64,000 nucleotides of DNA from a bacterium (GTDB lineage: Bacteria; Armatimonadota; Fimbriimonadia; Fimbriimonadales; Fimbriimonadaceae), in NCBI GenBank assembly GCA_027485645.1, contig JAIXQR010000007.1, forward strand, positions 434,001 through 498,000, in the 5' to 3' direction. The position numbers were made by a program, and so were the translations under genes. The notes beneath the pieces are model-generated. The model did no database searches. It saw only the letters and a list, made by a program, of their open reading frames with translations, and had not been told where the DNA came from. This document shows positions 46,707 through 51,735 of this stretch, piece by piece (position 1 is the stretch's first letter; each line of letters begins with the position of its first letter).

Positions 46707-47465
46707 CTACACTCGTTTGGGAAGAATCAAGCCTTCGGTCCCTTTTGCCTCGGCCCGGGCAAGCTCCGTGGCCGGAATCGGGGCGTCCACAATGTTCTTC
46801 CAGAACGGAAACAGAAGCTCAAGGCACTCAATTGCGGGTTTGAGATTCTTTGGCGGAGCCTCCAGTTCGAACATCCGATCCACTGCGATCACGGCTTCGT
46901 AACTCGCCTGGAACCGATCGGCGGGAACCATCGAATCTGAAGAAATAGAACCGCCTTGGCTCGGTGAGAGCCAGCACCTTCGTGATCCATCCGGCAAGCT
47001 CCAGACTTCGCAAGCGTCAAAACTCGGCTGAAATCCGGAAATCGCCAGCAACCGGCAAGCGGCCCAAACATAAACGGGTAGTGGGTTCTCTGAATCGTTC
47101 AGGAGCTGAAGGCTCTGAAAGAGCAACGTGAATTCGTCCGGCGCCGGATGCTCCCACGGTAGCAGACCGGCATACAACTCAGTCAGCGATACCGCAAAGG
47201 TGAGGCGGTGGTAATCGGTCCTTAGCTTCGGGAAAGCCGACTCAGGCTGAACCTGGGTGATGTACCGATTTCGCTTTGATACTGCGACGGTGAAGCGGCC
47301 AACCGTTAGCGGCTCAGAGACGGCCGCAAGCCGCGAGGTTGCCTTTTTCGCCCCACGGGCGACGGCGTCCACTTTGCCCAGTTCAACAGAAAGCAGGGTG
47401 AGTCGACGATCCGACTCACCCTGCTCCCTTCTGCGCAAGACCACCGCACGGATGGTTTGCTCCAT
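46707..47465 (-). CDS. recO: DNA repair protein RecO
   Basis: 252 residues. The N-terminal OB fold reads IRAVVLRRREQGESDRRLTLLSVELGKVDAVARGAKK, followed by RLAAVSEPLTVGRFTV. The middle helices contain LTELYAGLLP and the C-terminal region has a degenerate zinc site (AACRLLAISGFQPSFDAC with one Cys pair only). RecO binds single-stranded DNA and loads RecA in gap repair. It follows the unknown membrane operon with a 4-nt gap, so it is probably co-transcribed. Confidence 0.9.
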   Translation of the reverse strand: MEQTIRAVVLRRREQGESDRRLTLLSVELGKVDAVARGAKKATSRLAAVSEPLTVGRFTVAVSKRNRYITQVQPESAFPKLRTDYHRLTFAVSLTELYAGLLPWEHPAPDEFTLLFQSLQLLNDSENPLPVYVWAACRLLAISGFQPSFDACEVWSLPDGSRRCWLSPSQGGSISSDSMVPADRFQASYEAVIAVDRMFELEAPPKNLKPAIECLELLFPFWKNIVDAPIPATELARAEAKGTEGLILPKRV

Positions 47466-47469
47466 GTAC

Positions 47470-48219
47470 TTATCGTCCCGAAATCATCGGGAACACGCCA
47501 TCGCGCAACCATTCGATCCAAATGAAGTGCATTCGGTCGATGAGAAGCGTGAAGCGCATCATGACTGTACTGCCGAAGATCGCGCCGAAGCCGATCATGA
47601 GCAAGTATCGCCCCATCGTGTTGATACCCTTAACCGCTTTGCTCTTAACCTCAAAGCTGAACAAGAAGTAGCTCAACACGCTCACAACGGTGAGAGTGAA
47701 CAGGAAGTTGTTCACCGCCTGCGAGAAGTAGATCTGGCTTTGAACCTGCGACAGCTGCTCTGGGGTCAGACCGTTCGTCGAAGGAACGATCAGGGAATCC
47801 CAGGTAGTCGGCAGAATCGGCTTCAGCGTAGCATCAATCTGCGGGCCGTAGGTGTTCCACCAAACCTGAACCTGCTGTCCAGACCAGAGACCCAGAATGA
47901 TTCCGATCGGGATTCGGCTAATCCAGTTGTGCTTCTTGCTAAACACGAAGTAGCCCATCAGGCCAAACGGGATGAGCAAGGCATACGCGAACATGCCGTT
48001 CGTCGCCGCGGCACCGGTTTCGGCCGGGGTGCCAACCATCTTGTCCCACCAGTTGGCTTTCAGCGTTTCGGTCCAAAGGGCAACCATGGTCCAGCCTGCG
48101 GCAAGGCCGAGGAAGACGTGTTCGAAGAACCGATAGAACTTGTTCTCTTTCCAGAGAACGCTGTAGAGACCGATGGTCGCGATGACGCCAGCGGTGATAC
48201 GCATCAGGTCATAGTTCAC
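47470..48219 (-). CDS. Polytopic membrane protein of an unknown coupled operon (subunit 5)
   Basis: 249 residues with about six to seven hydrophobic helices: MRITAGVIATIGLYSVLW, VFLGLAAGWTMVALW, MFAYALLIPFGLMGYFVF, IPIGIILGLWSGQQVQVWW, AVNNFLFTLTVVSVLSYFLF and YLLMIGFGAIFGSTVMMRF. A soluble loop (GPQIDATLKPILPTTW) joins them. The ATG overlaps the previous stop by 4 nt. No family recognised. It ends directly before recO. Confidence 0.82.
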   Translation of the reverse strand: MNYDLMRITAGVIATIGLYSVLWKENKFYRFFEHVFLGLAAGWTMVALWTETLKANWWDKMVGTPAETGAAATNGMFAYALLIPFGLMGYFVFSKKHNWISRIPIGIILGLWSGQQVQVWWNTYGPQIDATLKPILPTTWDSLIVPSTNGLTPEQLSQVQSQIYFSQAVNNFLFTLTVVSVLSYFLFSFEVKSKAVKGINTMGRYLLMIGFGAIFGSTVMMRFTLLIDRMHFIWIEWLRDGVFPMISGR

Positions 48220-49163
48220 GACTTATCACCTCGCTTTGCTAGGAACATTCCGACGTTTCCAAGGATGATCATGATGATCATCAGAGCCAGCGCGTAATGG
48301 AGGGTTGGGTAGTACCGTGTTCCCTGCCCCTTGTTGTCGGGGTCCGGGAATCCTTCGATCGTGCCCAGCTTGTCCGACTTGATCTTCGCGGTGGCTTTGT
48401 CTGGGAAGTTGACGCCCGACTCCATGAGCTGCTCAAGGTCGTAAACGCCCTTGAGTCCGCCGCAGTAGCCGACGATCTGCTTTGATTGGTAGAAGACCTG
48501 GGTTTCTGGAACCATGACGCCGGTAACCGCGAAGGCCAGCGGAGTTCGGCCAGAAACTCGCTCAACGGCGAAGTTCGAGGTCTTGGAAGCGGTGATGACG
48601 AGCATCAGCGGGAAGTCTTCGACCTTGGTTACGCCTTGCAGGACCGGAGACTGGAAGACATCTCGTGGGGGAGAGTTGGGTGGGAAGTCTTTTCTTCCAC
48701 CAAACGCACCTTTGAGGTCGTTGGCAATTCCGTTGATGGCAGCTTCCGCGTTCGGGAAGTAGCCGATGTTGACCCAGTCGTTCCAGCGGTCAAAGGTCGG
48801 AAGGTTCTTTCGCTTCCGCTCCATGTTCAACTCGTTGATGGCGTCTTGGGCAACGCGGGGCGCCTGTGGGTCGGCCGCCGAGTAGATCGCGACCTTTGCC
48901 TTTCGCCGGATCAGGATCTTAAAGATGCTTCGGAAAGCACCTTTGCTCTCGCCACGGGTCGATCCGGTCCAGTCCGACATCAGCAGCACTTTGCTGCCTT
49001 CGGGCAGGGCCATCAGGGTGGCGTAGAAGTCCTTTGTCGATTCCACCGGCTCGTTCGGAACTTCGGTTGGGAAGAACAGAGGAATCGAGGTCGCCAAGAT
49101 CAAGATCAGATACAAGATTGGCTTCGGTAGCGACTGAAGCTTTTCTCCAAGATTTCCTTTCAT
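48216..49163 (-). CDS. Membrane-anchored Rossmann-like protein of the unknown operon (subunit 4)
   Basis: 315 residues with one helix at each end (PILYLILILATSIPLFF and YALALMIIMIILGNVGMFL) and a large extracytoplasmic domain between. That domain shows alternating strands and helices: SKVLLMSDWTGSTRGESKGA, AKVAIYSAADPQAPRVAQDA, DWVNIGYFPNAEAAINGIA, FPLMLVITASKTSNF. It looks like a nucleotide- or ligand-binding Rossmann fold but no known signature is complete. It is coupled on both sides (TAATG and ATGA overlaps). Confidence 0.82.
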   Translation of the reverse strand: MKGNLGEKLQSLPKPILYLILILATSIPLFFPTEVPNEPVESTKDFYATLMALPEGSKVLLMSDWTGSTRGESKGAFRSIFKILIRRKAKVAIYSAADPQAPRVAQDAINELNMERKRKNLPTFDRWNDWVNIGYFPNAEAAINGIANDLKGAFGGRKDFPPNSPPRDVFQSPVLQGVTKVEDFPLMLVITASKTSNFAVERVSGRTPLAFAVTGVMVPETQVFYQSKQIVGYCGGLKGVYDLEQLMESGVNFPDKATAKIKSDKLGTIEGFPDPDNKGQGTRYYPTLHYALALMIIMIILGNVGMFLAKRGDKS

Positions 49164-50077
49164 TACGAACCACTTCCCGGCTTTTCAAGGCTCAGCCAAA
49201 GTCTCAAGCCCATGGCAAGGGCGCCCAAACCAACTCCGAACTGGATGCCGCGGATGCTCGAGGTCTGGAAGGTATTCCGGATCCACTGAGCAACTTCGGT
49301 GAGCTGGAAGTTGAGAATAAACGGATTGCCGTTTGCGATCGCCTTCACGTTTTCGTCCCAAACGAATGAGACGGCCCCCATGAGGGAGAGAAGCACGAGC
49401 AGCGCGGCAGAGAGCAAGATGGTCGCTTCAACCGACCGAACCCGGAAGGCTCGGTAGGCGGCGCTAAGAATGTAGAACGCAATGACGGAGAACATCGCGG
49501 CGTCCATTTGCTGGAGCAGACCTTCGAAGAGGAAGTCTCTTCCGTACTGGGTGAAGCCCCAGTTGTCGCGGTTGTCCAGCATCGCGCCCCGCTCGCCAAG
49601 TCGGTCGAACCAGTCAGCGTAACCAAACCAAATCATCAAGCCCATGCTGGCGAGCAGCACGATGCTGAAGAAGGCATCCTTGTGCCCCTTCGAGATCTTG
49701 GTGAGGTGGATCTTCAAGAGCGAGAAGATGCCAAGGCCGAGGAGGAAACCGGTCAGGATCTGAGTGAAGCTAACAACAACGTTGTTCGAATCGGCAAGCC
49801 AGAACGAAACCGTTTCGACTGTATTGAGCGGCATTTCGCCGGGTTGTCGGTCGATGGGTTTGGGCCACAGGTACAGAAGCACCCAGTAAGCACCGGAGAT
49901 GAACGTGAAGAACGCAACGATCGGCTTTCGCGCTCGAATCGGCGCGTACAGAAGTCCGACCATCACTACGAGCCCAACGATGAGCGTGATGATCAGCTTT
50001 GTCCAAAGCTCCGAGGAGTTGAAAGCCTCTGACCAGAAACTCGTAGCGGGCGCTTGTGCCTGAAGAAGTGGAATCAC
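49163..50077 (-). CDS. Polytopic membrane protein of the unknown operon (subunit 3)
   Basis: 304 residues with about eight hydrophobic helices, including LIITLIVGLVVMVGLLYA, KPIVAFFTFISGAYWVLLYLW, FTQILTGFLLGLGIFSLLKI, AFFSIVLLASMGLMIWFGY, MFSVIAFYILSAAYRAF and EATILLSAALLVLLSLMGAV. The C-terminus has one more weak helix. Its start overlaps the stop of the DUF6754 gene by 4 nt. No family recognised. Confidence 0.82.
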   Translation of the reverse strand: MIPLLQAQAPATSFWSEAFNSSELWTKLIITLIVGLVVMVGLLYAPIRARKPIVAFFTFISGAYWVLLYLWPKPIDRQPGEMPLNTVETVSFWLADSNNVVVSFTQILTGFLLGLGIFSLLKIHLTKISKGHKDAFFSIVLLASMGLMIWFGYADWFDRLGERGAMLDNRDNWGFTQYGRDFLFEGLLQQMDAAMFSVIAFYILSAAYRAFRVRSVEATILLSAALLVLLSLMGAVSFVWDENVKAIANGNPFILNFQLTEVAQWIRNTFQTSSIRGIQFGVGLGALAMGLRLWLSLEKPGSGS

Positions 50078-51018
50078 TTTGCTGCCTCCCCTTCTGGAAC
50101 GTAGTTCGGATCAATCGGTCGCTCGACTTTCACTTTTTCAAGTTGTGGTTTGAAGAGCTGAGACATGAAAGTATCGGACTGTTTCTTGTTTCGCTCTGGA
50201 ATCTGGGACCACACGCCCTTGGTTCGCTCGGAAGTGGTTTTGCCCTGGATTTCGAACGTGTTGAGAATCGTTCCGAAAACGATCATCAGGATGATCATCA
50301 GCTTGCTCCAGTCTTGCCCGACAAGCGAGCCGACCAAAACGGGCTGGCGCGTTAGGTATGCCGAGGCGGCATAAAATTCGTCACCGATGAGAACGTAGTC
50401 GCAGGCCGCAATGAAGAATGGTGTCTGCGTCGTTTCGGTCGAGCTCGCAACCTGGATTGCGCCGATAGAGTTGGCGGTTTCCGCGAAGATCAACGACTCA
50501 GCATAGAATTCACCGAGGAAGAACGTCGCCGCAGTCTGCTCGCGGAGAATCAAACCAGAGACACCGGCGGCAAAGGCGAACTGGCGGTCCGAGACAAATC
50601 GCACGGAGTCGGGATCGTAGCGATCGGCCACGCCTTCCGACTGGTACACGTCTCGAATCGTTTCCTGAGCGTAGGTGTAAACCGCCGCGTTGTAGCAGCA
50701 CAGGAGAATGGGATTCGCGAAGCGGGCGGCGATTCGGCTGACGTACGCGAAGATGTTAACGGCCTGAACCGCAATCGCGTTGATCGTGTCGCTTAAGCCG
50801 GGAACCATGAGGACCGGCTTGCCCATTTCGGTAGCGCGTCCAATGGCTTCGTCGATGGCATTGAGGCCGGCGATTCGTCGAATGTAAAGGTCTTTCCCGC
50901 CACGGGCGCGACGAATGTTTACCAAGACGAACGCGGCCACCAGCAGCGTCATGAAGACGCCGAACCAGCCACTGTCACGGTACTGCTCGCCGATGTAGAC
51001 CTCAGAAAGCGGCATCAT
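50074..51018 (-). CDS. DUF6754-type membrane protein (subunit 2)
   Basis: 314 residues. An N-terminal helix (WFGVFMTLLVAAFVLVNI) and a C-terminal one (KLMIILMIVFGTILNTFEI) enclose a soluble region with conserved-looking motifs: GLNAIDEAIGRATEMGKPVLMVPG, ANPILLCCYNAAVYTYAQETIRDVY, VRFVSDRQFAFAAGVSG, FFLGEFYAESLIFAETANSIGA and TPFFIAACDYVLIGDEFYAASAYL. From memory this matches DUF6754, whose role is unknown. ATGA overlap with the small gene upstream. Confidence 0.82.
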   Translation of the reverse strand: MMPLSEVYIGEQYRDSGWFGVFMTLLVAAFVLVNIRRARGGKDLYIRRIAGLNAIDEAIGRATEMGKPVLMVPGLSDTINAIAVQAVNIFAYVSRIAARFANPILLCCYNAAVYTYAQETIRDVYQSEGVADRYDPDSVRFVSDRQFAFAAGVSGLILREQTAATFFLGEFYAESLIFAETANSIGAIQVASSTETTQTPFFIAACDYVLIGDEFYAASAYLTRQPVLVGSLVGQDWSKLMIILMIVFGTILNTFEIQGKTTSERTKGVWSQIPERNKKQSDTFMSQLFKPQLEKVKVERPIDPNYVPEGEAAK

Positions 51019-51311
51019 TGCGTATCACTCTCCTTAGGCAACTCTAGTTTTTTCATCAGTCGTTCAATGTTCTCCGGTTTCGAAAGAACCCTAGTGTAAT
51101 CGTTAACATTGTCAAAGCCAAGAAACGGGACGAGGAAAGGAGCAAAAACGACCCCCGCACTTCCGGCAATGCCAGCGAGAGGCTTGTGCATTTCAAGCGC
51201 CATCACCGCGGGCACCTCCATTTTCTTCGAGCGAATTTTGGTTGCGATCTTCTCCAACAGCTCCTCCGTGCCCTCCTCGGACATCTCCTCCACCCAAAAA
51301 TCCGACATCAT
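51015..51311 (-). CDS. Small protein leading the unknown membrane operon (subunit 1)
   Basis: 98 residues, ATG ATG start. An acidic helical start (FWVEEMSEEGTEELLEKIATKIRSKKMEVP) is followed by a hydrophobic segment (GIAGSAGVVFAPFLVPFLGF) and a charged tail (NIERLMKKLELPKESDTQ). Its stop overlaps the DUF6754 start. Its first 119 nt overlap, in another frame, the end of the gene at 51193-51735. No family recognised. Confidence 0.72.
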   Translation of the reverse strand: MMSDFWVEEMSEEGTEELLEKIATKIRSKKMEVPAVMALEMHKPLAGIAGSAGVVFAPFLVPFLGFDNVNDYTRVLSKPENIERLMKKLELPKESDTQ

Positions 51312-51735
51312 TTTGAACTCGATCCCTCACGTACGCGAGAACCGCGTCCCGATTATCCCCCGAGACGTTTAACCACACTCCCCGTGTCTCGTCTAGTCGG
51401 GTTTCTTGCCCAAATGGTGAAAGGTGAATTCGATTCTCGAACACCCTCACCTTCTTTACCGATTCCCAATCCATGCTGGAAACCCCGAGGAGCACGCCGG
51501 CCGAGGCCGATTTCTCATCGAGCCGGTACTTTACCGGCAAAAACATTGGAACCACGGTGGTCGCCACCAGAACGCTACCAACTAACCCGAGCACGATTTC
51601 CCGAACGGAAAGCCCCCAGACCAGCGGAAGCAAGATTCCCAGGCCGGTAACGACCTTCTTTCCGGTTCCGCTGGCGCGTGGCGCGGTCTGCCAGACCAGC
51701 GGCTCCAGACTAGCGCCAGTCTCCAAACAACTCAC
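51193..51735 (-). CDS. Membrane-associated hypothetical protein overlapping its neighbour
   Basis: 180 residues from GTG. Two hydrophobic helices near the start (VVTGLGILLPLVWGL and IVLGLVGSVLVATTVVPMFL) lead to a beta region (KYRLDEKSASAGVLLGVSSM, KVRVFENRIHLSPFGQETRL), reminiscent of bacterial PH-like domains. The last 38 residues are Gly-rich and read through the start of the next gene out of frame; they are probably not conserved. The gene overlaps the end of prs by 26 nt, so the true start may lie further in. Confidence 0.6.
   Translation of the reverse strand: MSCLETGASLEPLVWQTAPRASGTGKKVVTGLGILLPLVWGLSVREIVLGLVGSVLVATTVVPMFLPVKYRLDEKSASAGVLLGVSSMDWESVKKVRVFENRIHLSPFGQETRLDETRGVWLNVSGDNRDAVLAYVRDRVQNDVGFLGGGDVRGGHGGAVGEDRNQNSLEENGGARGDGA

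Follow-up and report, generated by a model that had tools for sequence, protein, structure and literature searches.

A conserved gene unit comprising a DUF6754 protein and a MutL-like partner may encode an ATP-driven transmembrane machine

Main Finding

The window (the whole stretch of DNA analyzed, 64,000 nt, from a genome of the Fimbriimonadaceae, phylum Armatimonadota) contains a gene cluster, g0 to g5, in which g2 codes for a DUF6754 protein. These genes, together with two genes located elsewhere in the genome that code for a MutL-family protein and for a protein designated p380, very probably form one functional unit. We further propose, with a probability of roughly one in three, that they encode most of a single envelope complex whose mechanism would be driven by MutL and p380. 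An earlier note on this DNA had described five of the genes (g1 to g5) as a membrane complex; these five belong to a larger unit, of which they form one end and which also includes g0, MutL, and p380.

Organization of the Gene Cluster

The features of the cluster and its downstream neighbor, with their coordinates in the window, are as follows.

g0, 51193..51735, minus strand: membrane anchor plus a small soluble region (iterated HMM; exact start and C-terminal tail uncertain)
g1, 51015..51311, minus strand: 98 aa, acidic (net charge -5), one hydrophobic stretch
g2, 50074..51018, minus strand: 314 aa, DUF6754 protein; predicted TM helix, cytoplasmic Rossmann-like domain, TM helix (AlphaFold2 and K+R asymmetry)
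g2 cytoplasmic domain, 50347..50880, minus strand: residues 47-224, with conserved R47, R61, E64, Q146, E174, E180, Q189, Q198, D207, and E214
g3, 49163..50077, minus strand: 304 aa, polytopic membrane protein (alignment and hydropathy)
g4, 48216..49163, minus strand: 315 aa; predicted TM helix, extracytoplasmic Rossmann-like domain, TM helix (AlphaFold2 and K+R asymmetry)
g4 outer domain, 48417..49043, minus strand: residues 41-249 (elements of the AlphaFold2 model)
g5, 47470..48219, minus strand: 249 aa, GTG start, polytopic membrane protein (alignment and hydropathy)
recO, 46707..47465, minus strand: Pfam RecO_N/RecO_C; downstream neighbor, outside the unit

All five overlapping ORFs of the earlier note were found where it had placed them, on the minus strand and followed by recO, with successive overlaps of 4, 4, 1, and 4 nt (g1/g2, g2/g3, g3/g4, and g4/g5) and a gap of 4 nt between g5 and recO. 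The assignment of g2 to the DUF6754 type was confirmed by a full-length Pfam match to PF20539 (residues 20-259 to profile positions 13-252 of 257, E 9e-93) that scored 310.5 bits against a cut-off of 27. The genes of the five-gene set and their order are therefore real, but the set was drawn too small, since g0 adjoins it and MutL and p380 are encoded elsewhere in the genome. The note had also given firm counts of eight helices for g3 and seven for g5; both proteins are polytopic, but crude hydropathy placed about six helices in g3 and four to seven in g5.

The soluble region of g0 looks PH-like on our reading of the sequence. The 3′-terminal part of g0 and the 5′-terminal part of g1 share about 119 nt, read in different frames (window 51193-51311); similar long overlaps of both genes and non-conserved g0 tails were seen in loci L073, L075, L080, and L105, and the choice of start codon may exaggerate them. 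The iterated HMM placed members of the g0 family directly before g1 in 27 loci within the phylum set and 37 loci in total, and the g1 family was found in 44 loci across phyla. Further upstream of g0, the window locus carries prs and glmU, named from their sequence. The recO gene adjoins the cluster in 9 loci only, and within the set examined this flank and, with rare exceptions, the prs/glmU flanks were common only to members of the same order.

Conservation and Distribution of the Module

For 137 g2 genes the available downstream sequence exceeded 3.3 kb, and in 129 of these cases g3, g4, and g5 came next, in this order and on the same strand, which is far beyond chance. This order recurs in Armatimonadota, WOR-3, Zixibacteria, Latescibacterota, Poribacteria, Cloacimonadota, anammox Planctomycetota, and other groups. 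Complete g2-g3-g4-g5 modules numbered 131 in 106 loci, 17 of these loci carrying two or three modules in tandem, and the fullest arrangement was g0-g1-MutL-p380-(g2-g3-g4-g5)n. Absence was also shared: g4 was missing as well from 18 of the 20 sampled Armatimonadota genomes that have no g2, and the two that had g4 were 78 and 87% complete. The co-occurrence of the genes, the order kept across phyla, the duplication of whole modules, and the joint absence are what the phylogenetic profile returned for these genes, and they uphold the earlier proposal of one functional unit. Mirror-tree correlations were 0.84-0.89, and these values were not taken as proof because shared ancestry alone can produce them. 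Neighboring genes were at most 20 nt apart in 92% of g3-g4 pairs, 85% of g4-g5 pairs, and just 70% of g2-g3 pairs; this last value, and the insertion of MutL and p380 between g1 and g2 in the fullest arrangement, leave the claim that strict coupling implies a fixed stoichiometry unsupported.

All 41 near relatives gave a DUF6754 match, which in one of them was partial and scored under the cut-off. Of 251 genomes sampled from the phylum of the window, 220 have DUF6754 (166 of the 179 good genomes), as do 17 of 59 from Planctomycetota, the phylum of locus L152 (a Brocadiaceae genome), and it was absent from all 14 control genomes. A scan of named genomes detected at least 576 DUF6754 relatives. 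The best 80 of these showed 59-76% identity and came from Armatimonadota, WOR-3, Stahlbacteria, Zixibacteria, Latescibacterota, Poribacteria, Cloacimonadota, Brocadiaceae (anammox Planctomycetota), Eisenbacteria, Edwardsbacteria, Fermentibacteraceae, Coatesbacteria, Methylomirabilis, TA06, and others. Judged from sequence matches, the unit is present in more than a dozen bacterial phyla, many of them mostly uncultured.

More divergent second copies of g2-g5, lacking g0 and g1, were observed in loci of the genus and order of the window (L076, L077 of genome G013, L079 of G019, and L082 of G025). Conversely, g2, g4, MutL, and p380 are all missing from G208 and G212, two genomes of 1.5 Mb from the family of the window, so the unit seems to be dispensable in small genomes.

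The Partner Proteins MutL and p380

In the window genome, the genes for MutL (G000:C1:120499-121992) and p380 (C4:3596-4708) are both located apart from the cluster. This MutL matched PF13941 over the cut-off (E 1.4e-129), and p380 is a conserved soluble protein with a mean column identity of 58%. Both partners were detected in all 14 g2-positive Armatimonadota genomes tested, and in 14 module-bearing genomes of other phyla MutL was present in 14 and p380 in 12. Twelve of the 17 g2-negative Armatimonadota genomes tested had neither p380 nor an over-cut-off MutL, and the five exceptions having them were fragmented assemblies. In a Cloacimonadota and a Sabulitectum genome, MutL and a p380-like region are joined in a single ORF of 916-953 aa. 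The coordinates of these fusion ORFs are as follows.

MutL-p380 fusion ORF, L184:7158-10019
MutL-p380 fusion ORF, L185:7157-9907
MutL-p380 fusion ORF, L186:6556-9333

By its family matches, the MutL of the unit is a GlmL-like, ATPase-like protein of the ASKHA (Hsp70/actin-like) type. MutL/GlmL has been described as a chaperone for the reactivation of glutamate mutase (PMC4682846). The MutL copy of L105 scored below the NCBIfam GlmL equivalog cut-off (222.7 versus 475 bits), and glutamate mutase E (PF06368) was found in none of 14 MutL-positive genomes, which makes it unlikely that MutL serves a glutamate mutase there.

Accessory Domains and Lineage-Bound Neighbors

Extra domains are inserted in or added to the core proteins at several loci. 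A PD40 propeller is inserted in g3 of L065 (L065:8219-9850), the g5 protein of L077 contains an inserted stretch with weak PQQ-like similarity (L077:5937-7160), and some g2 proteins carry long N-terminal regions, fn3 being among the accessory domains. In WOR-3/Stahlbacteria a DUF4388 gene comes directly after the module, and genes for ExbB, ExbD, TonB, and a plug-domain receptor lie further on. At L103, L110, L127, and L157 the DUF4388 gene overlaps or touches g5 and precedes uncharacterized small genes and those for ExbB, ExbD, and TonB, and in some of these contigs a CarboxypepD_reg/plug outer-membrane protein comes next. In two lineages, genes named glycine cleavage P by sequence similarity are no more than a few nt away from g0 or overlap with g1 (upstream of g0 in L105, L113, L115, and L135; L187:3643-5076). 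Since the TonB and glycine cleavage links are lineage-bound, they were not counted as core evidence. At L052, two-component and HD-domain response-regulator genes stand beside the module.

Family and Structure Searches

Searches of Pfam and NCBIfam assigned no family above the curated cut-offs to g0, g1, g3, g4, or g5, and the PADLOC anti-phage defense profiles recognized no family among g1-g5. In PDB sequence profile searches, g2 gave fn3 matches only, g4, g3, and p380 gave chance matches, and g5 gave none; with Foldseek, neither g2 nor g4 had a PDB match that reached E 0.001. Sequence homology between g2 and g4 was not supported by hhalign (probability 3%), and a search for homology between g3 and g5 with the same program did not find any. 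The cluster had no plasmid match, and no Rfam family was located around it. In the literature searched there was no mention of DUF6754, and the cluster as a system was likewise not found in the papers searched; neither these nor Pfam, NCBIfam, PADLOC, and the PDB sequence searches yielded a function for the unit.

Predicted Structure and Sidedness of g2 and g4

AlphaFold2 models were obtained with pLDDT values of 84.6 for g2 and 88.5 for g4, and both show a TM helix, a helix, six strand-helix units, and a second TM helix. The earlier description of g4 as double-anchored with a Rossmann-like outer domain agrees with its model. Counts of K+R per 12 residues on either side of the helices were 3.3/1.4 and 1.4/3.9 in g4, as against 1.8/3.5 and 1.8/0.7 in g2, and this opposite asymmetry indicates that the g4 domain is outside and the g2 domain inside. 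Many g2 relatives carry an N-terminal fn3 region ahead of the first TM helix, which agrees with an outside N-terminus. Accordingly, g2 and g4 are predicted to share a TM-Rossmann-TM plan with opposite sidedness.

The best fold match of g4 was MT0777 (Z 9.5, rmsd 3.5, 140 residues), followed by the CODH epsilon subunit at Z 9.2; transhydrogenase domain III matched at Z 7.9 (rmsd 3.6-3.7 over 144-145 aligned residues, with Z in the generic range). Those of g2 were Sir2 (Z 11.8), phosphoglycerate kinase (11.4), MT0777 (10.3), the MthK RCK domain (10.3), and CODH epsilon (10.1), and structure 1kjn and the CODH epsilon subunit were among the best matches of both proteins. From fold classifications we take these folds to be perhaps DHS-like. 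The models say that the g2 and g4 domains are Rossmann-like, perhaps DHS-like, and nothing more specific. The fold search that the earlier note had suggested for g4 thus bore out the Rossmann-like domain, but its matches were generic (best Z 9.5) and did not favor a nucleotide sugar over other ligands. The nucleotide-sugar ligand was set aside; since the VIA matches are spread over Rossmann-type folds, no specific ligand is claimed.

About 25 residues of g2 are near-invariant. Across 154 sequences R47, G51, G60, R61, E64, G74, G169, E180, Q189, Q198, P200, D207, E214, D236, and K239 are constant, and two sequences each deviate at Q146 and at E174. Rossmann-like domains bind ligands at the edge where helices start after strands. 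Q146, E174, Q198, and E214 are placed at or near the helix starts after g2 strands 3, 4, 5, and 6, and several of the conserved g2 residues would therefore sit at the expected ligand edge of the model. Compared with the outer domain of g4, the cytoplasmic g2 domain, to which the earlier note gave no special attention, is the more conserved candidate ligand site.

Proposed Mechanism and Alternatives

We propose that MutL and p380 form a cytoplasmic ATPase whose target would be the conserved pocket within the domain of g2. The resulting change would pass through the membrane by way of g3 and g5 and reach the outer domain of g4; in complexes whose g2, g3, or g5 has fn3 or beta-propeller parts on the outer side, these could receive it too. 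The complex would thus be a transmembrane machine powered by ATP, and its most likely task would be to move or to sense an envelope ligand. Such a mechanism, be it that of a transporter or of a sensor, is a doubtful assignment when taken by itself. Slightly better placed, and still tentative, is the proposal that the unit represents an undescribed class of transmembrane machine that combines mirror-placed Rossmann-like domains, two polytopic subunits, and a MutL-type ASKHA ATPase with p380.

The alternative that came closest, although rather improbable, is signaling without transport, in which g4 and the fn3/propeller parts would sense the envelope and g2 with MutL-p380 would report to the cytoplasm. 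Variable recognition-type domains on a conserved core would fit this reading, as would the regulator genes adjoining the module in L052 and the DUF4388 gene coupled to g5 in WOR-3/Stahlbacteria. However, no conserved kinase, cyclase, or regulator accompanies the unit, and a sensor needs fewer than two polytopic membrane subunits.

A redox or hydride-transfer complex modeled on transhydrogenase or Rnf/Nqr, in which DHS-like/Rossmann domains would have NAD(P) or FAD as bound cofactor and the membrane subunits would link this to ion movement, is unlikely. Rossmann folds occur in redox enzymes too, and this reading draws on the matches of g4 to transhydrogenase domain III and CODH epsilon, on those of g2 to Sir2, RCK, and dehydrogenase domains, and on a weak RnfC_N barrel-sandwich match in p380 (19.2 bits against a cut-off of 25.6). 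The fold Z scores are, however, within the generic range, g2-g5 lack any Rnf, Nqr, or transhydrogenase family match, the alignments contain no conserved cysteine clusters or heme motifs, and an NAD(P) domain facing outward would have no cofactor pool.

The role of the MutL family in serving B12-dependent mutases, together with the TonB-type receptors found nearby in some phyla, could suggest that the complex reactivates, loads, or imports a corrinoid. We consider this very unlikely, given the absence of glutamate mutase E described above, the lack of any over-cut-off B12-binding domain in g1, MutL, p380, or the module proteins scanned, and scores under the GlmL cut-offs for the scanned MutL. 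Finally, a housekeeping superoperon holding unrelated membrane proteins together by happenstance, which the position between glmU-prs and recO in the window's order might suggest, was dismissed as a general explanation because cross-phylum gene order contradicts it: the flanks differ between phyla while the module stays intact and duplicates whole, and its absence is shared with the distant MutL and p380 genes.

Comparison With Known Systems

The ATP-driven machine proposed here was compared with the known systems that its parts recall. g2 is a full-length member of DUF6754 (PF20539), a family without an assigned function, and the descriptions of DUF6754 that were found do not include the partner genes, the sidedness, or the link of the unit to MutL and p380. 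The MutL of the unit belongs to PF13941, the family of GlmL/MutL (NF040745, TIGR01319), and differs from GlmL in its size of about 600 aa, in extending past the PF13941 domain, and in being linked or fused to p380. The predicted g4 fold resembles transhydrogenase domain III and CODH epsilon (DHS-like fold), the latter also resembling g2; this fold is a common one, no sequence relation to either was found, and the g4 domain is predicted to be extracytoplasmic, while g2-g5 gave no match to the proton-translocating transhydrogenase (PNT) families of Pfam and NCBIfam up to E 1. The weak, below-cut-off match of p380 recalls the N-terminal barrel of RnfC/NqrA, and no other Rnf/Nqr subunit was identified among the proteins of the unit. 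In WOR-3/Stahlbacteria the module heads the gene run that includes ExbB, ExbD, TonB, and the plug-domain receptor, whereas g0-g5 themselves contain no MotA_ExbB or ExbD domain and no such genes stand beside the cluster of the window. None of the eight components matched a P-loop ABC ATPase, as an ABC/ECF transporter would have. Since the known kinds did not fit the tests made, the unit is filed under no known system; discovery of its ligand could yet return it to a known kind.

DUF6754 is near-universal in the phylum of the window and, as the most conserved subunit, 59-76% identical across phyla, a conservation that usually marks an important cell function. With this unit, a likely membrane partner emerges for an orphan MutL branch, within a family known to serve B12 mutases. 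If real, the mirrored arrangement of Rossmann-like domains inside and outside would be an unusual way of building a transmembrane device.
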